This document shows, one piece after another, positions 16,414-63,862 of a stretch of 64,000 nucleotides of DNA. The DNA comes from an uncultured Selenomonadales bacterium (GTDB lineage Bacteria > Bacillota > Negativicutes > Selenomonadales > Selenomonadaceae): the NCBI GenBank assembly GCA_937901445.1, contig CALDHY010000030.1, positions 1 through 64,000 of the forward strand, given 5' to 3'. The stretch's first letter is position 1. The number at the start of each line of letters is the position of its first letter. The position numbers were made by a program, and so were the translations under genes. The notes beneath the pieces were generated by a model that was not told where the DNA came from, made no database searches, and was given only the letters and a program-made list of their open reading frames with translations.

Positions 16414-16556
16414 TTAAGGGCTAAGGACTAAAGACTAAGGGCTAGGGGATTTTTCCTTATCCCTGTTTTTAGATTATAAATGATTATCACAAAGTTTCAA
16501 GCATAATATTTTTCCTTAATCCCTAATCCTTAACCCTTAACCCTTAATCCTTATTT
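16414..16556 (-). repeat. Two heptad-type arrays flanking the purF promoter region
   Basis: 16414-16465 holds TAAGGGC/TAAGGAC/TAAAGAC units, a GGGGATTTTTCC centre and then CCTTATCCCTG. 16511-16556 holds only pyrimidine-type units (CCTTAAT, CCCTAATC, CCTTAACC) and runs to the mnmG stop codon. The first array can fold into a hairpin in the purF leader; the second lies just past mnmG and pairs poorly with itself but could pair with the first. Confidence 0.65.
16473..16500 (-). promoter_or_regulatory. Promoter of purF
   Basis: On the minus strand TTGAAA (16500-16495), 16 bases, TATAAT (16478-16473). The heptad hairpin at 16414-16465 would lie in the transcribed leader. Confidence 0.65.
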
Positions 16557-28085: not shown

Positions 28086-28291
28086 TAAATTTCTCCTAAA
28101 AATTTTGGCTAATTTTATACTGCAAAAAAAAATTTGTAAATATAAAAAATATCCGCGTACGTGCGCCTGAAGGGCTCTAGCTGAAGATTTTGAGTAAATT
28201 TGGTACAATTACCCTAAAAACAATTTAAACCTGCCTTAAATCGAAAATTTCACGTTTTCAAGAAAATTTTACTCTTGCCTTGTATTTGTAA

Positions 28292-28584
28292 TTGCGTGTA
28301 CACGGACGCTTGAATTTTTATTGTGAATTTGCGCGTACACTGACGCCTGAATTTTTTATTGTGAATTTGCGTGTACACGGACGCTTGAATTTTTTTATTG
28401 TGAATTTGTGTGCATACAGACGCTTGAATTTTTTATTGTGAATTTGCGCGTACACGGTCGCTTGAAATTTTTTGTGAATTTGCGTGTACACGGTCGCTTG
28501 AAATTTTTTGTGAATTTGCGTGTACACGGACGCTTTAGATTTTTATTGTGTGCTTGCGTGCATACTGACACTAAAAAATTTTGC
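28292..28584 (+). repeat. Eight-copy 36-39-bp tandem repeat
   Basis: Units begin at 28292, 28329, 28367, 28406, 28444, 28480, 28516 and 28554. Each holds TTGCGTGTACACGGACGCTT followed by GAATTTTTATTGTGAAT, with a CGTGTACACG-type palindrome at its core. Units abut without spacers, and lengths of 36-39 bp break any reading frame. A diverged relative (GCGTACGTGCGCCTGAAG) lies near 28156. The array is in the 600-base gap before telA; the rest of that gap (28086-28290) shows no other feature. Confidence 0.85.
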
Positions 28585-37338: not shown

Positions 37339-37366
37339 ATTTTTTACCTAAATTCAACTTACAAAT

Positions 37367-37411
37367 TTCCTAACCCTTAGCCCCTAGCCCCTAAATCCTA
37401 ATCCCCAAATC
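37367..37411 (-). repeat. Heptad-type array between the unknown gene and tlyA
   Basis: CCTAACCCTTAGCCCCTAGC-type units, overlapping the 3' end of the 37391 gene and supplying its stop codon. Confidence 0.65.
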
Positions 37412-38005: not shown

Positions 38006-38014
38006 ATTTTTCCT

Positions 38015-38054
38015 CAATTCCCTAATCCCCAGCCCTTAGCCCTTAGCCCCTAAA
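38015..38054 (-). repeat. Heptad-type array at the dxs stop codon
   Basis: CCCTAATCCCCAGCCCTTAG-type units; the final dxs codons (LGAKG and stop) are read from the repeat. Confidence 0.65.
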
Positions 38055-53362: not shown

Positions 53363-53458
53363 TTAAAGACTAAGGAATAAAGCCTAAAGACTGGGGATTT
53401 TTCCTTAATCCCTAACCCTTAGTCCCTAACCCTTAGTCCCTAACCCTTAGCCCCTAAA
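53363..53458 (-). repeat. Longest heptad-type array with inverted arms
   Basis: AAGACTAAGGAATAAAGCC-type units, the centre GGGGATTTTTCCTTA, then seven or so CCCTAACCCTTAGTC-type units in near-perfect tandem. The arms can pair into a hairpin between the CsgG-like gene and trkH. Confidence 0.75.
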
Positions 53459-54985
53459 TTACCATTCTTTTAAATTTCGTCTGTCAATCAAGCCCGCAAA
53501 AAAAATTAATACTACAAAAATTTCAAGCCGCCCTACAATCAAAATTATCATACAAAAAATTTTTCCCGCCGCCGGTAAGTTCAAAAAATTTTCCGGCTCG
53601 CAAATTCCGGGCAAAGTTCCAACATTTGTTAAACACGAAAAAGACATTGCAACCGCTTCAGAAAAACTTAGCCCGGTAAAACTCAACGCCGCCGAGCAAA
53701 TAAATAAAGTTACGCACGCCAAAAAGAAAAAGCCCAAAATTCGTCCGATTATTTCTTGAGGCACTGAAATTTTATTGACTTTTATAACTGTCAACATTCG
53801 CGGGTGCATTGTTTTTTCAAGTTCAGCCGCCATAAGTTTTGCAAGTACAATCACGCGCATAATTTTCAGCCCGCCGGTTACAGAGCCCATACAGCCGCCG
53901 ATTATCGCCAACGAAAAAGTAAAAAATGTATCGAAGTCGTTAAGTTGTTTAAATGAATCTTGGTGAATTCCCGTCGTGCTCAAAAATGACGCCACGTGAA
54001 AAATTGCATGCCTGAACGCCGCGCCGCCGGAAAAAATCCCCTGCCGGTACGTGCTGAAAGTCAACATTCCAACACCAACAAAAATTATCAGCGCAACAAC
54101 TTTTACTTCGGAATTTGTAAAAAATTTCTTTATGTTGTTGACGATATTTTGAAAAAAAGTTTTGCAGTAATTAATTCCGCGCCTAAAAATATTTTCCTTT
54201 TGCTTGACGATTGGCGGCGGCGTTGTAACAATCAGCCGGTGATAAAATAAAAAATTTCCGCACGCTAAAATCATTGTGAAGGTTGCCGCGTATTCAATAA
54301 AAATATTTCCTTGCGCAGGGAAAAATTCGCCGCCGCCGGTCGATATGCAACGCATCGCCATTATCGCAGAATCCCAAAAACCTAAGCCCGCCAATTTAAA
54401 TAATCCTATGCTTAAAATTGTCAAGCCCGCGTAAACTTTTATCATTCGTTGCGCCATTGCCAGCATTTGCCCGAAAAGCGGACTGAAATTTTGTCCGCCG
54501 TGCAAACTTAATGCAATACCAAAATTGCCGCTAACTTCAGGCATTACCGTTACAAGCATTACCAAAAAAATCAGCGAACCGTACCACATTAACAAACTTT
54601 GCCACAATATTAAACTATAGGGCGCGCTTTCAGGCAAAATTCCAATTCCCGCCGAAGTTAGATTTGCAACAGTTTCAAGCGCGGCATCAACCGGTGATAA
54701 AACTCCAAAATATATGAAAGGCAACGCGCCAAAAATTGCAACCGGCGGATAAACTAAAAGCATTGCGGTTGCAGCCGAAATTAGCGGCAGGCGGCGGCGG
54801 GGGTTACGCCCTGCATATTTCAAGGCTCTTTCGGCGGCAATTACGCAAATTCCAATGACGCCAAAAACTATTGCCACGTCAAATTCACGCCGGAAAACTG
54901 CCACGTAAATTATAGGGACGGCGAAAATTGCACTGAACGCAATTAAAACATTCCCCAACAAACTAAAAATAATTTTCTTATCCAT
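53459..54985 (-). CDS. TrkH/KtrB-family potassium (cation) transporter membrane subunit
   Basis: 508 residues with eight or more membrane segments and four pore loops. The loops are TSAGIG (about 118-123), RCISTGGGEF, SFLSTTGIHQ and SCLTNVGTLPG, fitting the KtrB/TrkH superfamily. The first loop lacks the usual T-x-TG spacing. Takes up K+ (or Na+) across the cytoplasmic membrane, normally with a cytoplasmic RCK-type TrkA/KtrA partner that is not adjacent here. A basic N-terminal region (RNPRRRLPL) follows the second helix. Confidence 0.85.
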   Translation of the reverse strand: MDKKIIFSLLGNVLIAFSAIFAVPIIYVAVFRREFDVAIVFGVIGICVIAAERALKYAGRNPRRRLPLISAATAMLLVYPPVAIFGALPFIYFGVLSPVDAALETVANLTSAGIGILPESAPYSLILWQSLLMWYGSLIFLVMLVTVMPEVSGNFGIALSLHGGQNFSPLFGQMLAMAQRMIKVYAGLTILSIGLFKLAGLGFWDSAIMAMRCISTGGGEFFPAQGNIFIEYAATFTMILACGNFLFYHRLIVTTPPPIVKQKENIFRRGINYCKTFFQNIVNNIKKFFTNSEVKVVALIIFVGVGMLTFSTYRQGIFSGGAAFRHAIFHVASFLSTTGIHQDSFKQLNDFDTFFTFSLAIIGGCMGSVTGGLKIMRVIVLAKLMAAELEKTMHPRMLTVIKVNKISVPQEIIGRILGFFFLACVTLFICSAALSFTGLSFSEAVAMSFSCLTNVGTLPGICEPENFLNLPAAGKIFCMIILIVGRLEIFVVLIFFAGLIDRRNLKEW

Positions 54986-55120: not shown

Positions 55121-56386
55121 ATGTCCGGTGGAAAGCCCAAAATTGTTATAGTTGGCGGAGGATTCGGCGGGATTAAACTTGCCAAACTTTTCGCCAAAGA
55201 AAATGTTGATATTACGATTGTTGACCGCCATAATTTTCATTTATTCCAGCCGCTTTTATATCAAGTTTCAACTTCCGTACTTTCGACGGACGAAATTGCA
55301 TATCCTATTCGTTCATTTTTCCGCAATAATAAAAATGTAAGTTTATTTATGGCAAAGGCGCAGGGCGTCGACCAAGAGCGAAATGTTTTGTTGACGAATC
55401 ACGGCGAAATTTCCTATGATTATTTAATTTTAGCCGCCGGTGCCACGACAAATTTTTTCGGTATGAAAGAAGTTGAGGAACATTCTTTTGGAATGAAAAC
55501 CTTGCAAGAGGCGTTACACATAAGAAATCACGTCCTGCACGAATTTGAACGCGCCTGCAAGCCGTACCGCACGCCTGAAGACAGAAAAAAGCGAATGACT
55601 TTTGTAGTTGTAGGCGGCGGACCAACAGGCGTTGAAGAAGCGGGCGCGCTTACAGAATTAATCGAAATTCAGAAAAAAGAAATTCACGAGCTTGACTGGA
55701 ACGATGTTAAAGTTTATCTGATTGAAGCAACAGATAAAGTTTTACCAATGATGACGCCTGATTTACAGGAAGAAACAGTTAAAGTTTTGCGAAAAAAAGG
55801 CGTCAACGTTATGTTGAATACGCAAGTTGTAGGTTACGACGGCGACGTTTTGAAATTGAAAAGCGGCGCGGAAATTCCAACAACAACGGTAATTTGGGCG
55901 GCGGGCGTTCGCGCAGTTGACTTTATAAAAAATTGCGGCGGCGAATGTGCGCGCGACGGACGAATTTGGATTGAAGAAAATTTAATGGTACGCGGTGCAG
56001 TTCATCAGAATGTTTTTGCCATTGGCGATTGCGCGGCGTTTATGCACGGCGATATGAAACGCCCCTTGCCGACGGTTGCGCCGGTTGCTACTCAAGAAGC
56101 GGTTGTTGTTCACAAAAATATTATGAAACTGATTAAAGGCGAAGGAAACCTTGAAAAATTCGTCTACAAAGATTTGGGCGCAATGGCAACCATCGGGCGC
56201 GGTAAAGCCGTTGTCAACCATCCGAAAATGACGGGATTTTTGGCGTGGTGCGCGTGGATGTTTGTACATTTAATAAGATTGGCGGGCGCACATACCAACT
56301 TTACCGTTGCGTTAAAGTGGACGTGGAATTTCTTTTCAGGAACGCGGCTCGGGCGAATTATCACGAATATAAAACTTGATCCTTAA
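55121..56386 (+). CDS. ndh: Type II NADH:quinone dehydrogenase (NDH-2)
   Basis: A peripheral-membrane flavoprotein that passes electrons from NADH to quinone without proton pumping. 421 residues: KIVIVGGGFGGIKLAKLFAK (FAD), HLFQPLLYQVSTSVLSTDEI, VVVGGGPTGVEEAGAL (NADH), TVIWAAGVRA, NVFAIGDCAAF and the PVATQEAVV quinone-site region. A C-terminal amphipathic/hydrophobic segment (GFLAWCAWMFVHLIRLAG) is the membrane attachment. It indicates a quinone-based respiratory or redox-balancing route. Confidence 0.93.
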   Translation: MSGGKPKIVIVGGGFGGIKLAKLFAKENVDITIVDRHNFHLFQPLLYQVSTSVLSTDEIAYPIRSFFRNNKNVSLFMAKAQGVDQERNVLLTNHGEISYDYLILAAGATTNFFGMKEVEEHSFGMKTLQEALHIRNHVLHEFERACKPYRTPEDRKKRMTFVVVGGGPTGVEEAGALTELIEIQKKEIHELDWNDVKVYLIEATDKVLPMMTPDLQEETVKVLRKKGVNVMLNTQVVGYDGDVLKLKSGAEIPTTTVIWAAGVRAVDFIKNCGGECARDGRIWIEENLMVRGAVHQNVFAIGDCAAFMHGDMKRPLPTVAPVATQEAVVVHKNIMKLIKGEGNLEKFVYKDLGAMATIGRGKAVVNHPKMTGFLAWCAWMFVHLIRLAGAHTNFTVALKWTWNFFSGTRLGRIITNIKLDP

Positions 56387-56395
56387 TAAAAAATT

Positions 56396-56428
56396 AACTC
56401 ACAGATTGAAATTTTCTGTGAGTTTTTT
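56396..56428 (+). terminator. Bidirectional terminator between ndh and the CARF genes
   Basis: AACTCACAGA/TCTGTGAGTT with an A-run left and a T-run right; serves ndh on the plus strand and the CARF operon on the minus strand. Confidence 0.85.
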
Positions 56429-56463
56429 GTTGAAATTTTTCTTAGTGTGTTGAAAAAAACTTT

Positions 56464-58605
56464 TTAGTACTGTCTGAAATTTACAAATTTGAAAGTTGAA
56501 ACTTTCTTTGTAGAGCCGTCCGGCTCCGTAATTTCTGAAACGACGCGCTCACTTGTTGCCGCCATTACCGGAATTTTATTTTTTTTCAGTTCCTCAACCA
56601 TTGCAACAGTATAATTAAATTCGCCTTGACAAAGTACGGCAACCGGCGCAAATTCTAAAATCGCTTGCAAATTTTTTATAACCATGTCTTTAACTTGTTT
56701 TGCAGAAAAATTTGGCGACACTTCAGGGAAAGGTAAATCAACAATTCGCCCCAATTTTTCAGCCGCTGCTTTTTGTTCCGCGCTCCAATTTTCCGACGTG
56801 TGATTTGTATGATTTACAAAAATTTTTTCAACACTTATAATTTCTTTCGGCTCTTCAATTTCGGTAATTTCGGAAATTTCGATTTTTTCTATTGTTTCAA
56901 TTTCATCAAGCCCGCTCTTAATAAAATCTTCCAAATCTTTTGCCGTCTCAAATTCGCCAATATCAAGGCGTGCGTGGTTGCTGTGGTTGCGCTCGTCCTT
57001 CAAAGTAAAATATTTTTCCATTACGCTGAAAAATTTTTCTTTATCCATTGCCAACCTAAAAATATTTTTCCTTAACATATAATCAAGCCGGAAAATTCTT
57101 GTATCGCCTTCATATGAAGCCAATTTTCCATTCAAATCGTTAGTTGGAAGATTCTTGAAAAGTACATTAAAACGTTTACTCGGTTTGGTGACTTGCAAAG
57201 ATTTAATAGATTTAATAAATTCTTTAATCGGCAAAAGTTCAACTGATTCTAAATCTGACAGCAACGCGGGATTGTTCCAAATTTTACTCAAAGTTTCAAG
57301 TTGCAAGCGCAGTTGATTTTCATTTGGAGCTTTTATTCCTGCCGACAAATTTTTTTCGATAACAATTTTTCCTTTCAAATTGTCGTAGTTGAAAATATCA
57401 GCTTGCACTGCCGGTACAGCAAATTTTTTTATCGATGAAAAATAATCCCCGCGTCCTTCATTCAAGGCATCAACTTGTTTTATAAAATCTGCGCGAGCAG
57501 TTTTAAAATCTTTATCGTCTTCAAGATAATTGTTCAGTACGTAAAAGCCCTCGTTCCTGTTATCTTTTTTCAAAATTTTATCGACGGCTTCACGGTATTT
57601 ATCTGTAAGTACAACAAATTTTTTGTAAATGTATTCCGGCACGCGCTCGGTATAAAGCGTCAACGCCTGTTGCAAGTAGCCGTGTTCAACGCACCAACGA
57701 ATTATTTTTAAATCGTCTTGCCCGCGCGTTGCTATAAGCATAGAATATTTTTCACGAATTTTGCCAATAAGCCGCTCCATTAAAATATCCTGTACATTTT
57801 CAATATTGGTTTCAAAATCGTTAATTGCGTCATGCAGATTTTCAATCGCCGCCTTAAATTGCCCGTAACGGCAAAGTTTTATTGCTTCTGCAAAATTTTC
57901 CATTGCGCCGGTTAATTTTTTCGGCTGTTCAGATTGTTCAATACCGGCGTAATATTTTTTCAACGCCTCGACGCTGCCGAAATTTATAAATTCTTCGACG
58001 CCGGAAATTAACTGAAACAAATCATAAATATTTTTGACTTCCTCAACGGTACTTTTTTTATCTTTGCCTTTGTAATTTGAATAAATCAGCCTCCCGATTT
58101 TTATACCGCTGTATTCAAGCAGGCGGATAACATCCAGCATAAGCATATTAATATGACGCATTCCGCCGGTTAAATCGACGTGCAAAACAATTTCTCTATT
58201 TTCAGCGTACTCTTGAATCATTTTTGCTATAGCTGCCACGCTTTTCAAATTTTCATCGCCGGTTAAATCTTCGTCAAAGTTATAAGTTGTATATTCAACA
58301 TTCGGCAAAAATTTTTTCATACGGTTTGTAAAATAATCCAGATGCGTTACAGTTGGATTATTTTCAATAAGAATTAATTTTTTTTCGTCAATTTTGCCGT
58401 CATTATCGACGCCGCGAATTTTTTTGGACGCCAAAATAAAAATCCTTGAAATTTCATCTTCGTTTTTCAGAATATAACGCACGGCAGATTCATTGGTTGT
58501 ATGTGTTTTTTCGCTGCCTTTTATGTTGTCATATTCGACTTCAGAAACTTTACCGCCAAAAACTTTCACATCGCTTAAAAAAGTCAACAAAATATGTTCA
58601 GCCAT
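56464..58605 (-). CDS. CARF-HEPN ribonuclease-like protein fused to a Csx20-like domain
   Basis: 713 residues. Residues 1-215 form a CARF-type Rossmann domain: TNESAVRYIL at 38-47, and the ligand-loop motif HVDLTGGMRHINMLMLDVIR at about 142-161, as in TM1812/Csx1-Csm6 proteins. A long helical region follows. The HEPN active-site motif is complete in KDERNHSNHARLD (Arg539-x4-His544). After a short acidic linker, residues about 590-713 resemble Csx20: VLCQGEFNYTVAMVEEL, PVMAATSERVVSE and the ending FKFVNFRQY. Inferred action: cyclic-oligoadenylate-like ligand binding switches on RNA cleavage, and the Csx20-like part may degrade the ligand. GGGAG precedes the ATG. It follows the paralogue by 12 bases. 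No cas10 or CRISPR is in the window. Confidence 0.82.
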   Translation of the reverse strand: MAEHILLTFLSDVKVFGGKVSEVEYDNIKGSEKTHTTNESAVRYILKNEDEISRIFILASKKIRGVDNDGKIDEKKLILIENNPTVTHLDYFTNRMKKFLPNVEYTTYNFDEDLTGDENLKSVAAIAKMIQEYAENREIVLHVDLTGGMRHINMLMLDVIRLLEYSGIKIGRLIYSNYKGKDKKSTVEEVKNIYDLFQLISGVEEFINFGSVEALKKYYAGIEQSEQPKKLTGAMENFAEAIKLCRYGQFKAAIENLHDAINDFETNIENVQDILMERLIGKIREKYSMLIATRGQDDLKIIRWCVEHGYLQQALTLYTERVPEYIYKKFVVLTDKYREAVDKILKKDNRNEGFYVLNNYLEDDKDFKTARADFIKQVDALNEGRGDYFSSIKKFAVPAVQADIFNYDNLKGKIVIEKNLSAGIKAPNENQLRLQLETLSKIWNNPALLSDLESVELLPIKEFIKSIKSLQVTKPSKRFNVLFKNLPTNDLNGKLASYEGDTRIFRLDYMLRKNIFRLAMDKEKFFSVMEKYFTLKDERNHSNHARLDIGEFETAKDLEDFIKSGLDEIETIEKIEISEITEIEEPKEIISVEKIFVNHTNHTSENWSAEQKAAAEKLGRIVDLPFPEVSPNFSAKQVKDMVIKNLQAILEFAPVAVLCQGEFNYTVAMVEELKKNKIPVMAATSERVVSEITEPDGSTKKVSTFKFVNFRQY

Positions 58606-58617
58606 AAAATCACTCCC

Positions 58618-60333
58618 CTAAATTTTTTCAAGTTCGTTAAGATAATCGACAATCATTTTTTCAAGGTCGGAAATTTCTTTGCGCTCGATATTGTTTGCGT
58701 GATTTAAGCGGTTACGCTCCTGCCGTATTTCGTAGTAGCCGTTCAAAAGTTTCAAAATTTCTTCTTGATTGGTGATTTTAGATCTTGCAACGCCATTTTT
58801 CAGCATTTCCCTATAAATTGCTGCGCGATTTTCCCATTTTGGCGCAGCGTTTTCTTCAAGCTTTTTCAGTACAATATTAAGCGCGTTTATTTTGTCTATA
58901 TTTAAAATTCCCAAAAGAGATTCTGCGCGCAAGTCGGCGATAACGGCAAAAATTTTATCGTAGTCTAAGGTGCGCAGGTACTCAAAAAATTTTTTCTTGC
59001 AGGGTCTTTCCTTGTACAAAAATTGAAGCGCGTCAAACAACAGCGGATATTTTTTCTTAAATTCATTGACAGATAATTTACTTCCAACACAAAGAGAAAA
59101 CGCGCCGTAAGCTCTTGAATGCTCGTCAACCAGATTTTTTAAGTTACCGTAGCTTTTTGAAATTAATTTTTCTGCTATTGGACTTGGCAAATTTTTTAAG
59201 ATACGCCTTAAATCTCTACAAAAAATATTCAGCAATTCGTGGTCAACTTGTAATTTATTTTTGCGCTGATAGGCGATTATAAAATGTTGTTGCCATTCCC
59301 GCCCGAATGTTATCCCGTCGTTTTCGGCGTCCTTTATAATCAATTCGCTTGTCGGCTCAAAAATTTTTCTGTTGATAATTTCTTCCGGCAACCATTCGGT
59401 ACAAAGTGTCATTGCCTGTTGCCAAAAACCTTTTTTCATACACCAACGAATAATATCGGGGCGGGTTGCTTTACCCTTTATTAAATTTCCGTACTCAAAT
59501 TCAATGGTGTCAATAATTTTAGAGAAAAGTTCGCTTTTAATATCTTTTATTGTTGTTTCACGAAAAATTTTAATTTGTTCGCCGAGATTTTTTAAATCGC
59601 CTTCGATATCTGCCGTACGACAAATTTTTATAGTTTCAGAAAAATGTTTCATGGCGTCCAGAAGTTTTGAAGTTGCAGCGTCAGAATTTCCCTCAAAGTA
59701 TTCCATAAGAGCCTCCACGCTGCCAAACTTTACAAATTCATCTGCGCCGGTTATCAGCGTAAAAACTTTTTGAATTTCGTTTGCGCGGTAGACAATTTTT
59801 TTGGCGGGATCTGAATAAAGAATTGCGCCAATTTCAATTCCCCTGTACCGCAACAGTTGAATAATTGACAGCATAAGCATTGAAGTATGACGAAAACCGC
59901 CTGTCATATCTGCGTGAACAATAATTTTTTCGGTTGGGAAATTCTTTGCATAATTTGTAACGGCGTTTGCAATTTCGGCTATCTGCAAAATATTTTTTTC
60001 CAAATCTCTATCGTCCGAATAATCTTGCTCCACAAATTTATCTTTAAGGTACGGGAACTCTTTGAGAATACGCCGCTTCAAAAAATCTATGTGTTTGATT
60101 TTCCCAAATTCAGTTTCTGCCGCTACAAAATCATTTTTAACTTTATCGCTTGTTATGAAGAAAATTTTTGATAAAGAATCACTGCCGAGCATCCTTTCAA
60201 CATAGACAACGGCGGATTCATTTGTTTGTATTGAAGAATAAGGCGCGCCTTTTATATCAGGGTAAACTATAGGATTTTTAAGGTAGACTTCGTTGACAAC
60301 GCTCACGAACGCCAACATTATATTTTTCGCCAA
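58618..60333 (-). CDS. CARF-HEPN ribonuclease-like protein (paralogue without Csx20 domain)
   Basis: 571 residues from a TTG at 60333 placed eight bases after AGGAAG. The N-terminal CARF-type domain has TNESAVVYVE and HADMTGGFRHTSMLMLSII (motif at about 140-158). The middle has FVKFGSVEALMEYFEG and DIIRWCMKKGFWQQAMTLCT, matched in the partner as FINFGSVEALKKYYAG and IIRWCVEHGYLQQALTLYTE, so the two are tandem paralogues. The C-terminal HEPN motif is RQERNRLNHANN (Arg540-x4-His545). It lacks the extra C-terminal domain. Probably co-transcribed with the fusion gene downstream; the two may form a heteromer or respond to different ligands. Confidence 0.82.
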   Translation of the reverse strand: MAKNIMLAFVSVVNEVYLKNPIVYPDIKGAPYSSIQTNESAVVYVERMLGSDSLSKIFFITSDKVKNDFVAAETEFGKIKHIDFLKRRILKEFPYLKDKFVEQDYSDDRDLEKNILQIAEIANAVTNYAKNFPTEKIIVHADMTGGFRHTSMLMLSIIQLLRYRGIEIGAILYSDPAKKIVYRANEIQKVFTLITGADEFVKFGSVEALMEYFEGNSDAATSKLLDAMKHFSETIKICRTADIEGDLKNLGEQIKIFRETTIKDIKSELFSKIIDTIEFEYGNLIKGKATRPDIIRWCMKKGFWQQAMTLCTEWLPEEIINRKIFEPTSELIIKDAENDGITFGREWQQHFIIAYQRKNKLQVDHELLNIFCRDLRRILKNLPSPIAEKLISKSYGNLKNLVDEHSRAYGAFSLCVGSKLSVNEFKKKYPLLFDALQFLYKERPCKKKFFEYLRTLDYDKIFAVIADLRAESLLGILNIDKINALNIVLKKLEENAAPKWENRAAIYREMLKNGVARSKITNQEEILKLLNGYYEIRQERNRLNHANNIERKEISDLEKMIVDYLNELEKI

Positions 60334-60366
60334 AAAATTCACTTCCTATACTTTTAAATTTTTAAG

Positions 60367-60426: not shown

Positions 60427-60454
60427 GTTAAAAATTTTTTAAGGGGGCGGCAAC

Positions 60455-61723
60455 TTGTTTACAGATTTACACATACACAGCACGGCAAGCGACGGCACGG
60501 ACGCGCCTGAAGTCATTGTTCAGAAAATTTGCGGCGCAACCGGAATTAAAATTTTTGCGTTGACTGACCACGATACAATTTCCGGCGTTGAAAAGATTGA
60601 GGCGGCAATTCCTGCCGGTACTTTTTTTATTCACGGCGTCGAATTTTCCTGCAAGACGGAGCGCGGCTTTAAGTGTCACATTTTGGCTTACTTTTACGAT
60701 TCAACCAACGCTGACTTTCAAAAAATCCTTCTGCAAGGTAAAAATCTTCACGCCGAAAAACTCTCGCGCAGATTAAATTTTCTTGCCGAATTGTACGGGA
60801 TAAAATTTGCCGAAAATGACGTTGCCGAACTAAGCAAAAATGAAGTTGTCGGCAAGCCGCACATTGTAAATTTTGTGGCTGAAAAATTCGGCTTTGACAA
60901 GAAAAAAATTTATGACGATTTGCGCAAATGTAAATTTAGTTCACGGCTTGACGCGCGCGCGGTAATTGCCGCAATAAAAAATTCCGGCGGCGTGGCAATT
61001 TGGGCGCACCCGCTCGGCGGCGAAGGCGAAAAAATTTTATCTCAAGCCGAATTTCAAGAAAGATTTGACGAACTGAAAAATTTGGGAATTGAAGGGCTTG
61101 AGTGTTTATATTCCCGCTACAATAACGCGCAGGAAAATTTTTTGGTTGAAACTGCGCGACAAAATAATTTGTACATTTCCGGCGGCAGCGATTATCACGG
61201 CAAAAATAAAACTGTTGCGCTCGGCGAATTGGGAACCGAAAAGCCGCACGTCAAAATTTTTCAACTTACGATTTTACAAAAAATTTTTGAGTGTCATAAA
61301 AATTTGCGCGTAAGAAAAGCCTTTGAAGTTGCAAAAACTGCGCACGGCGGGCAATTCGATAAAGCGGGCGTTGAATATATTTTTCACCCAATGACGGTTG
61401 CGCTAAATTTTGGCGGCGATGATTCGGCAATAATTGTTTCGCTGTTACACGACGTGGCAGAAGATACAAGCTTGACGGTTGAAAATCTGCGCGAGGAAAT
61501 TAATTTGACAGCGGCTGAAGTTAGCGCGTTGAAACTTTTGACGCACGATAAAGCCGTTGACTACTTCGACTACATAAAAAAAATAAAATCAAATGCACTT
61601 GCCGCCAAAGTTAAAACAGCAGACCTTGAAAATAACTCTGACTTGTCGAGAATTGCGGCTCCGACCGAAAAAGATTTTAGCCGCGTCGAAAAGTACCGGC
61701 AAGCCTTGAATATCTTGAAATAA
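60455..61723 (+). CDS. PHP phosphoesterase fused to a RelA/SpoT-type HD hydrolase domain
   Basis: 422 residues. Residues 1-270 form a PHP domain of the YciV/TrpH type with all metal ligands visible (DLHIHSTASDG; ALTDHDTISG; HGVEFS; IWAHPLGG; SGGSDYHG), a fold that hydrolyses nucleotide phosphoesters such as 3',5'-bisphosphate or RNA ends. Residues 290-420 form an HD domain of the (p)ppGpp hydrolase kind: AKTAHGGQFDKAG, YIFHPMTVAL, LLHDVAEDT and VKTADLENNSDLSRI. No synthetase or TGS/ACT domain is present. The start is a TTG with AAGGGGGCGG upstream. Two nucleotide-hydrolase domains in one chain next to CARF proteins suggest second-messenger turnover, which is inference. YciV-like proteins alone are about 290 residues. 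Confidence 0.82.
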   Translation: MFTDLHIHSTASDGTDAPEVIVQKICGATGIKIFALTDHDTISGVEKIEAAIPAGTFFIHGVEFSCKTERGFKCHILAYFYDSTNADFQKILLQGKNLHAEKLSRRLNFLAELYGIKFAENDVAELSKNEVVGKPHIVNFVAEKFGFDKKKIYDDLRKCKFSSRLDARAVIAAIKNSGGVAIWAHPLGGEGEKILSQAEFQERFDELKNLGIEGLECLYSRYNNAQENFLVETARQNNLYISGGSDYHGKNKTVALGELGTEKPHVKIFQLTILQKIFECHKNLRVRKAFEVAKTAHGGQFDKAGVEYIFHPMTVALNFGGDDSAIIVSLLHDVAEDTSLTVENLREEINLTAAEVSALKLLTHDKAVDYFDYIKKIKSNALAAKVKTADLENNSDLSRIAAPTEKDFSRVEKYRQALNILK

Positions 61724-61777: not shown

Positions 61778-63862
61778 CTATTCTTTAGCTTTTAAATTAA
61801 AACCGATTTTCTTTTTGTTGTCCGAATACTGCGCGACGACGTTTACTTCAAAATCTTCAACCTTGAGTTGTAAAAGTTCATCGCGTCCAATTTCCTTGCC
61901 TTCATTTTCAGTAACGATTCTTTGAGATTGTTTCAACAGTGCCTGTTCCAACAAATTCCTGACAAAACGCCCGTTGCCGAAATCTTCCTTGTTGCAAACT
62001 TTTGAAAAAATTTCGTAGCAGTGCTTTTCAATTTCGGGGTTAAGTTCAAAGCCTTTGTTTTTCGCCATAAGTTGAAGAATCTGCAAAAGTTCGGCGGCGT
62101 TGTAATTTGGAAAATCCACGTGAAAGGCAATTCGACTGCGCAAGCCTTCATTTCTTGACAAAAAGTTTTTCATCTTTTCGGGATAACCGGCAAAAATTAC
62201 AATTACGTCGTTCCTGTGATTTTCCATTTCCTGTACGATTGTATTAATTGCCTCATCGCCGTAAAGCCCCTCTCTGTCTTCAAGGAGCGAATAAGCCTCA
62301 TCAATGAAGAGTACGCCGCCCTTTGCAAGCTTGAATTGGCGTTTAACTTTCGGTGCTGTGTGTCCTACGTATTCGCCGACTAAATCTGCGCGACCGCACT
62401 CGATAAATTCGCCGGTATGTAAAATTCCTTCCTTGCTCAAAATTTCCGCCAATAATCTTGCAACGCTGGTTTTTGCGCTGCCGGGGTTGCCGGTAAAAAC
62501 CATGTGCAAGCTTGTTTGATGTTGTTCAAGACCGAGCGTCGAGCGGATTTTTTGAACTTTTGCGTTGCCGATTATTTGATTGATAATTTTCTTAATTTCA
62601 GTCAAGCCAATCATATCTTGCAACCGTTGATAGGCATCTTTGGCGGTTAATTCTGAACGCATAATCATAAGGCGGCTTGCCTGTTTGTAGGCGGTGTACG
62701 TGTTGTTTCTCAAGCTGTCGCGCAGGATTGAACTATAAATTTTGTGCAAATCTGAAGGGTAGAAACTGACTTTATTGCCGAGAAAAACTTCAACGTTGGT
62801 TTCTTTGAGTTCAACTTTGCCGTGTTTTATTATATCGCTAAGATACGCCGCCGCCTCTGCGCGGTTGCCGGAGCCTTCGTTGACTTCGACAAGGTAAATA
62901 TCTTCCTGCAAATTTTGTATAAATTTTGTGGCAAAGCCGGGATTTTCTGTTATTTCAAGGAAAATAAACAAGGTATTTTGTTGGTGCTTGCGTACGAGTT
63001 CGGCAAATTCTTTAACGACGCGCTCATAGCAAGTGGCGTAATTTCTATGTTCATCCTTTGAGCCGCGCAGTTCGATAATAATTGTGTTTCCGGCTGATTG
63101 ATCAAAAATGCTGTCTAAGTCACATTCGCAGTAGCAATGCTCGGTTACTTCAGAAATGAGAGTGATACTGCGCCCGACTAATCTTTTGTTTTCATAAAGG
63201 GCGTGGCAAATTAAATCTGCCATTTGTTTTGCGCCTTGAGAATTTTTGGCAGAAAATTTATAGTGGACGGGGTGCCCGTAAAATTTTTTTGGATTTTCAG
63301 CTGAATAAATTCTTTCCAGTTCGTCAATCAAAGTTTTATCCGCCATTAATTTTTTTGCTTTGTTGCGCGCTTGAGTAAGGGTAAATTTCTTTTCGTCAAA
63401 AAGTGCTTCTTCAACTTTAAATTCTTCGTTGTTGAAATAGTTCAAAGTAAAGTTTCTGTGTTGCTGAAGGTTGCCGCGCTCCCAGTGGCTGCGATAAGTG
63501 AAATAATCTGAACGCTCGGCGGCTGTCAAACATTTTTGCGCCTGTGACGGCAAAATTTCGCGCAGGCTTTTTACTTTTATATCTTCCAATAAAAAATTAT
63601 CGTCAGAAAAAACTTTCTTCAAGAATTTTGTTAATTCGGCGGCAGTAATTCTGGTTAGTGAATCTGTACCAATTAATAATCGAAATTCGCCGATTTTTGC
63701 GCTGTAAATCGAAATTGCAAAGTTTGCCGCGTCCAAGAGATATTCATTTAAATCTTGAATTATGGATTCGCCCCAATTCCTTTTTGCACTGCAATTCATA
63801 TTTTGTATAATGGTTCCTTCGCTTTCGCTGTCAAAAGTTATATGACAATCATAAAATTGCAT
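61778..63862 (-). CDS. CbxX/CfqX (SpoVK)-type AAA+ ATPase with long N-terminal region
   Basis: 694 residues. The C-terminal part (about 415-694) is a CbxX/SpoVK-type AAA+ domain: Walker A GNPGSAKTSVARL (the usual glycine before Lys is Ala), Walker B GGVLFIDEAYSL, sensor motif VIVIFAGYPEKMKNFLSRNEGLRSR and the lid GFELNPEIEKHCY. The first ~400 residues are not recognised; residues 225-345 (SITLISEVTEHCYCECDLDS ... NTLFIFLEITENPG) look like a degenerate second AAA/P-loop fold. Family members remodel protein complexes; the client here is unknown. GGGAGG precedes the ATG. Whether it belongs with the CARF genes is unproven. Confidence 0.75.
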   Translation of the reverse strand: MQFYDCHITFDSESEGTIIQNMNCSAKRNWGESIIQDLNEYLLDAANFAISIYSAKIGEFRLLIGTDSLTRITAAELTKFLKKVFSDDNFLLEDIKVKSLREILPSQAQKCLTAAERSDYFTYRSHWERGNLQQHRNFTLNYFNNEEFKVEEALFDEKKFTLTQARNKAKKLMADKTLIDELERIYSAENPKKFYGHPVHYKFSAKNSQGAKQMADLICHALYENKRLVGRSITLISEVTEHCYCECDLDSIFDQSAGNTIIIELRGSKDEHRNYATCYERVVKEFAELVRKHQQNTLFIFLEITENPGFATKFIQNLQEDIYLVEVNEGSGNRAEAAAYLSDIIKHGKVELKETNVEVFLGNKVSFYPSDLHKIYSSILRDSLRNNTYTAYKQASRLMIMRSELTAKDAYQRLQDMIGLTEIKKIINQIIGNAKVQKIRSTLGLEQHQTSLHMVFTGNPGSAKTSVARLLAEILSKEGILHTGEFIECGRADLVGEYVGHTAPKVKRQFKLAKGGVLFIDEAYSLLEDREGLYGDEAINTIVQEMENHRNDVIVIFAGYPEKMKNFLSRNEGLRSRIAFHVDFPNYNAAELLQILQLMAKNKGFELNPEIEKHCYEIFSKVCNKEDFGNGRFVRNLLEQALLKQSQRIVTENEGKEIGRDELLQLKVEDFEVNVVAQYSDNKKKIGFNLKAKE

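Follow-up and report, generated by a model that had tools for sequence, protein, structure and literature searches.

A linked CARF-HEPN gene pair with one Csx20-fused member, a candidate relocated type III-D effector cassette in Selenomonadaceae

A CARF-HEPN ribonuclease and a ring nuclease joined in a single chain are known from the Csx1-Crn2 fusion of Marinitoga (PDB entry 8y7g), in which, according to passages of PMC7293037, effector and ring nuclease together make a time-limited RNase. For a different ring-nuclease family, passages of PMC12409355 report that stand-alone Csx20 degrades cyclic tetra-adenylate (cA4) in vitro, and cA3 at higher enzyme, that Csx20 is strongly associated with Csx1, and that the accompanying survey covered 6 kb around the type III locus. 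Here we describe two adjacent genes, A and B, in a 64,000-nucleotide stretch from an uncultured Selenomonadales bacterium (Selenomonadaceae; GenBank assembly GCA_937901445.1, contig CALDHY010000030.1, positions 1 to 64,000; this whole stretch is "the window" below), which encode two CARF-HEPN proteins, one of them fused to a Csx20-type domain. The PADLOC collection holds a composite model with the same domain order as B, PDLC01843 (CARF_HEPN_CSX20, 498 positions), whose name we take, as an assumption, to stem from the 2020 CARF classification paper. The architecture is thus already known from the PADLOC model, and the mechanism from the published analogue Csx1-Crn2.

No CARF-HEPN-Csx20 fusion is described in passages of PMC12409355, PMC12830947, PMC13148439, PMC7293037, PMC4012209 or PMC12669027, and the literature passages covered are equally silent on a fused Selenomonadaceae lineage with unfused intermediates, on the linked A/B pair, and on its separate location at a site that arrays of the same kind of system also use. 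The pair is most likely a relocated type III-D effector cassette that would work in trans, and we consider it quite probable that A and B serve a type III-D system as ancillary effectors, with Cas10d encoded elsewhere in the genome. B would then be another natural RNase/ring-nuclease fusion activated by cyclic oligoadenylate, built on another ring-nuclease family than Csx1-Crn2, and would test one-to-one coupling of effector and off-switch as a repeated solution.

Domains and conservation of the two proteins

A and then B are read co-directionally from the minus strand, with a gap of 12 nt; residue numbers of A refer to its 571-aa version.

58618..60342, minus strand: gene A, CARF-HEPN protein, 574 aa from a GTG start or 571 aa from a TTG start at 60333
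56464..58605, minus strand: gene B, CARF-HEPN-Csx20 fusion of 713 aa (PADLOC and AlphaFold2 (AF2)/Foldseek)
58021..58605, minus strand: CARF domain of B, approximately residues 1-195, with motif DLTGGMRH at 144-151
56875..57132, minus strand: HEPN region of B, approximately residues 492-577, with R539-x4-H544
56464..56826, minus strand: Csx20 ring-nuclease-type domain of B, residues 594-713 plus stop (profiles and conserved columns)
58606..58620, minus strand: A-B junction, stop of A overlapping the likely ribosome-binding site of B (by eye)

Both proteins have the N-terminal CARF Rossmann domain and C-terminal HEPN domain with R-x4-6-H that define CARF-HEPN proteins of the Csx1/Csm6 type (CARF2); the corresponding motifs of A are DMTGGFRH at 142-149 and R540-H545. 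The PADLOC CARF2--CARF_HEPN models PDLC01829 and PDLC01830 match A with 505 bits and B with 418 bits, and the Csx20 model PDLC01397 (114 positions) aligns to B from its position 2 to 114 with 114 bits, scores that set the domain assignments well beyond chance. The composite PDLC01843 gives B 141 bits, far less than the 418 bits of the unfused model, and part of that score comes from the CARF domain, because A, which lacks the Csx20 domain, also receives 75 bits. Elsewhere the family signal was weaker: TIGR02221 (TM1812) from NCBIfam matched B weakly, and Pfam gave B sub-threshold hits only (Csa3_N, 22.4 bits against a cut-off of 27) and A no match. Among the B relatives listed, precomputed Pfam annotation places PF27247 on fused proteins only and PF27248 on many CARF-HEPN rows.

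A and B are 35% identical over a 365-column alignment of B residues 1-353, a second aligned segment includes the HEPN motif, and profile-profile comparison returned a probability of 100% over 535 columns; on these alignments the two are paralogues, as a sequence-only reading of this DNA had proposed; the end coordinate given there is that of the TTG start of A. That reading had also singled out an extra Csx20-like domain on the downstream protein, ending in FKFVNFRQY; it lies at B 594-713 with that ending and is backed by the PADLOC match, while the NCBIfam Csx20 score stays under its cut-off. The ring-nuclease role it gave for Csx20 as merely proposed is now better founded, through the cA4 degradation in vitro by the stand-alone protein reported in passages of PMC12409355. 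B shares that domain family, stand-alone relatives of which are frequently neighbours of cas10d and of A- or B-type genes; in B, by contrast, the domain is fused to the effector and its activity is predicted.

Like Csx1-Crn2, B joins a CARF-HEPN ribonuclease to a ring nuclease, with the same self-limiting logic (passages of PMC7293037). The ring nuclease of Csx1-Crn2, however, is Crn2 (DUF1874), whereas the one predicted in B is Csx20, and B is adjoined by a second CARF-HEPN paralogue, A, without a ring-nuclease domain. Since the C-terminal domain matches Csx20, and neither Pfam, NCBIfam nor the 25 PADLOC rows listed give B a Crn2 or DUF1874 model, we do not file B under the Csx1-Crn2 type.

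Conservation was assessed on the best 120 of 331 B matches (the window's B included) and the best 120 of 170 A matches. The HEPN residues R539 and H544 are invariant in all 120 B rows, while among the A rows R540 is kept in 112 (6 gaps, 2 other residues) and H545 in 111 (7 gaps, 2 other); the R-x4-H sites are therefore conserved among homologues, as the earlier interpretation demanded. The D, G, G and R of the CARF motif are invariant across all 240 A and B rows. For Csx20, 39 rows (11 fused, the rest stand-alone) were collected with B's own domain as query, after short rows (three), identical copies (three) and duplicate retrievals of the G001 and G002 loci had been removed. B retains every one of the 35 columns whose conservation in this set reaches 90% or more. 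Compared with their counterparts in locus L001 of another species, B is 65% identical over 681 aligned codons and A 76% over 490, with ratios of nonsynonymous to synonymous substitution (dN/dS) of about 0.33 and 0.21, so both genes have been under purifying selection across species.

AF2 models of A and B reached predicted local distance difference test (pLDDT) values of 82 and 83.6, and the top Foldseek match of both in the PDB is Marinitoga Csx1-Crn2 (8y7g); whole-chain structure alignments of B to Csm6/Csx1 were also obtained. As part of the whole-chain model, B 591-713 forms alternating strands and helices with a block pLDDT of at least 82. The whole-chain structure lists are filled by CARF matches, and the absence of a Csx20-part match there weighs neither way. 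No convincing relative emerged when PDB sequences were searched with profiles.

At the junction of the two genes, an AGGGGAG Shine-Dalgarno-like stretch lies just 5' of the B ATG and is overlapped by the TAG stop of A (by eye), which makes translational coupling of A and B likely.

Association with type III-D Cas10 in related genomes

We surveyed 189 genomes of the family for B-like matches and, with model PDLC02057, for Cas10d. B-like matches occur in 54 of them, 50 with CARF-HEPN parts and 4 with Csx20 only; Cas10d was found in 64 genomes at E 1e-5, or 55 when matches weaker than 1e-9 are set aside. Cas10d is present in 47 of the 50 genomes with CARF-HEPN genes versus 8 of the 139 without (Fisher p 3e-32, kinship not corrected). 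As to physical distance, 60 of 89 CARF-HEPN matches share a contig with Cas10d, 51 of them within 10 kb and 56 within 20 kb. The four farther ones lie 1.69 Mb (G039), 266 kb (G141), 25 kb (G163) and 20.6 kb (G041) away. The G039 and G141 genes sit on chromosome-size contigs, and although distant (33% and 32% identical to A) they establish that detached CARF-HEPN genes do occur in genomes with Cas10d. Surveys limited to a few kb around type III loci would miss detached cassettes such as A/B. In G141, three arrays with one common repeat surround a csx20 and CARF-HEPN cassette (L080:6364-11783) whose closest Cas10d is 266 kb away.

Scanning genomes with B as query yielded two loci, both from Selenomonadaceae. 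In the closest pair with readable surroundings, L001, a type III-D cas10 stands roughly 3 kb from A: A and a fused B are preceded by two regulator-like genes (one a PADLOC WYL match), and beyond these lie III-D Cas10d, Cas5 and Cas7. In this draft, A of L001 is split into overlapping frames of 76 and 490 aa (L001:8463-10153), a real break or an assembly error. Other CARF-HEPN-Csx20 fusions lie within 4 kb of Cas10d in G140 (L083:7014-12839) and G027 (L082:6425-15442), each with a second CARF-HEPN gene alongside. All three III-D loci carry A and B relatives together with Cas10d, Cas5 and Cas7, and L001 and L082 also regulator-like genes, one of them WYL, whereas the window has the effectors only. 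The GGDD cyclase motif is present in the L001 Cas10; the Cas10-like frames from L082 and L083 contain it as well.

These data suggest how the pair might work. Foreign RNA would be sensed by a Cas10d complex whose genes lie elsewhere in the genome, and this complex would produce a cyclic oligoadenylate, most likely cA4. The messenger would bind the CARF domains of A and B and switch on their HEPN ribonuclease sites, which would then cleave RNA without discrimination. The Csx20 domain of B is predicted to cleave the same messenger, so that every B chain would carry its own timer, while A, without such a domain, would depend on B in trans for its shut-off. The cassette itself is detached from the cas operon and occupies a chromosomal position where two close relatives have a CRISPR array.

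Origin of the fusion and linkage of A and B

In unfused relatives, csx20 often lies a few nucleotides from A- or B-type genes. It is directly 3' of B in G002 and G080, overlaps the end of B by 4 nt in L002, and in G092 is separated from B by a single in-frame stop codon. In a Csx20 tree, the window's fused clade comprises 9 rows (support 98/93) with G092 next to it, and the fusion probably arose by joining of a csx20 gene directly behind a B-type gene. Fused rows also occur in other parts of the tree (P0038 and G027), and the starred branches require at least three label changes, which may reflect several fusions, or one fusion with two losses. G140, also fused (788-aa frame), lies outside the tree sample. 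A search with the Csx20 part found at least 9 fused proteins among 348 candidates in B's length range; the G027 and G140 types are not among them. Because adjacent, stop-separated and fused stages all exist in related genomes, the fusion step is open to direct study.

The Csx20 domain matched no phage record, B and its Csx20 domain had no relative among viral contigs, and B matched four plasmid records through the Csx20 part only (31-38% identity), with TIGR02221 genes under the match in three of the four. G064 carries a stand-alone csx20 about 70% identical to B's domain (L081:1843-2217), with neither a CARF-HEPN relative (E 1e-20) nor Cas10d (E 1e-5) detected in that genome. Two unusual small neighbouring open reading frames (ORFs) had suggested a prophage origin for this lone gene, which we dropped, as three of four proteins had no PHROGs match, among them the csx20 product and the two small neighbours, and the other a weak lipoprotein match.

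To call A and B separately we used thresholds of E 1e-100 or better for A and 1e-95 or better for B, a separation by score rather than by tree. A then occurs in 20, B in 19 and both in 12 of the 189 genomes (p 1.5e-9, kinship not corrected). Nine of the 12 carry both on one contig, 20-2545 nt apart (4 tandem, 5 convergent), and the remaining three on separate contigs. From this co-occurrence and these short distances, A and B tend to travel together. Conservation of the pair, which the sequence-only reading had suggested checking, is incomplete, with A alone in 8 genomes and B alone in 7. The linkage raises the question of why two similar RNases stay together.

The chromosomal site and competing readings

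The pair lies behind an NADH dehydrogenase (NDH) gene that marks the site:

55121..56386, plus strand: flanking NADH dehydrogenase (NDH-2-like; Pfam Pyr_redox_2)
56397..56428, plus strand: hairpin plus T-run after NDH, similar in relatives, a terminator by eye

NDH is 95% identical in G001 and G084, close relatives that also carry fused B, and on its other side synteny extends to TrkH and further neighbours. In G001 the NDH terminator is followed by a CRISPR array of 21 repeats, and in G084 by one of about 15, with similar leader-like sequence 5' of both (by eye); the window has the end of B there instead. The core of the NDH-site repeat recurs on the cas10d contig of both genomes (C14 in each, plus two places on C2 of G001). 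By blastn, homology of the NDH block ends at 56440-56443, that of the pair to L001 spans 56463-60338, and the downstream block starts near 60430. We examined the site in 48 of 168 genomes with an NDH match, two of them with less than 1 kb downstream and several with less than 2 kb. An array directly after NDH occurs only in G001 and G084; in L103 (G068) three copies of a repeat lie some 3.8 kb away, and G064, with NDH 94% identical, has other genes at the site. Two array cases among kin are weak evidence for a site rule.

A bolder proposal builds on this site, and we regard it as unlikely: A and B would be a two-part effector in which only B has a messenger-destroying timer, B setting the response duration for both RNases or for an A/B heterodimer, and in this family effector cassettes and leader-array units of one III-D system would be separately mobile and able to occupy the same docking sites, the homology for relocation likely being supplied by identical arrays dispersed in the genome.

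Several results weigh against a relocated III-D cassette. By tblastn the 64 kb contain no homologue of nine cas or WYL-type proteins from two relatives, and no CRISPR array was found there; when array repeats of G001 and G084 and the 11-base repeat end were searched in the window, the best matches were no better than shuffles. With Cas10, Cas5/Cas7 subunits and an array sought across the window and not found, we do not file the window itself as a type III-D locus, and the earlier statement that no CRISPR is in sight there is upheld. B's protein cluster lies on one contig of 69185 nt, probably the window's own, which reaches about 5 kb beyond it. Three of the 50 CARF-HEPN genomes (G058, G070 and G083, all drafts) have no detected Cas10d, and the nearest B relative in the protein set, P0002 (74% identical, 147 kb contig), falls outside the context evidence. 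As to the domains, NCBIfam NF040559 (Csx20) scores 48.7 bits on B 628-713, under its cut-off of 70. The predicted TM-scores of the models, 0.47 and 0.53, indicate middling global quality, B residues 545-547, just after H544, have pLDDT below 50, and the VIA structure matches cover B 1-568, the Csx20 part being modelled in the whole chain only. Whole-chain TM-scores to 8y7g are 0.21-0.28.

That reading had taken the pair for an orphan or alternative signalling unit, in which the messenger would come from a source other than a type III Cas10. The window without cas10 or array and the three genomes without detected Cas10d speak for it. Against it stand Cas10d in 47 of 50 relatives' genomes, the 51 of 60 same-contig matches within 10 kb and the L001 pair inside a III-D locus, the position of the G058 genes on a draft-genome contig of 7.5 kb, and the lack of any nucleotide cyclase among the 18 other window proteins, from part of the window only, that were compared with PADLOC or Pfam (10 of them with PADLOC). 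We now regard this explanation as highly improbable; its observations are confirmed and its orphan interpretation is not, leaving the interpretation partly supported. The cassette could also be a relic left idle after loss of III-D, given a window free of any cas gene or array found, and of any array remnant, at a site that holds an array in two close relatives. That both ORFs are full length with intact conserved motifs makes this improbable too, as does a dN/dS well below 1, a ratio that is nevertheless averaged over the divergence and blind to recent loss.

An assembly chimera, with the pair wrongly joined to the NDH block on one side and to the downstream block on the other and truly belonging in a III-D locus, would explain why homology to relatives breaks at both edges of the pair, and dispersed CRISPR arrays in relatives invite misassembly. 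Yet no CRISPR repeat was found at either edge, and relatives differ among themselves in the genes after NDH; we give this as little credence as the orphan explanation. The relocated III-D effector cassette remains our preferred reading.

Beyond the pair, 60455-61723 encodes a protein with a PHP domain and a C-terminal HD domain (HD_4, below cut-off), considered as a member of the unit and set aside because its relatives in G064 and G084 occur without the pair. At 61778-63862 follows a protein of 694 aa in which an AAA ATPase and AAA_lid_6 form the C-terminal part and the N-terminal 400 residues have no Pfam match. Rfam and tRNA scans of the window returned nothing. At 28280-28581 a 36-39 nt unit (TTGTGAATTTGCGTGTACACGGACGCTTGAA-like) is repeated eight times head to tail without spacers, which is not a CRISPR array. 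Runs of a CCTTAGCCCCTAA-like unit, mostly intergenic, occur at 16508-16553, 37355-37400, 38007-38052 and 53397-53470, and L078 has comparable short runs of a different unit.

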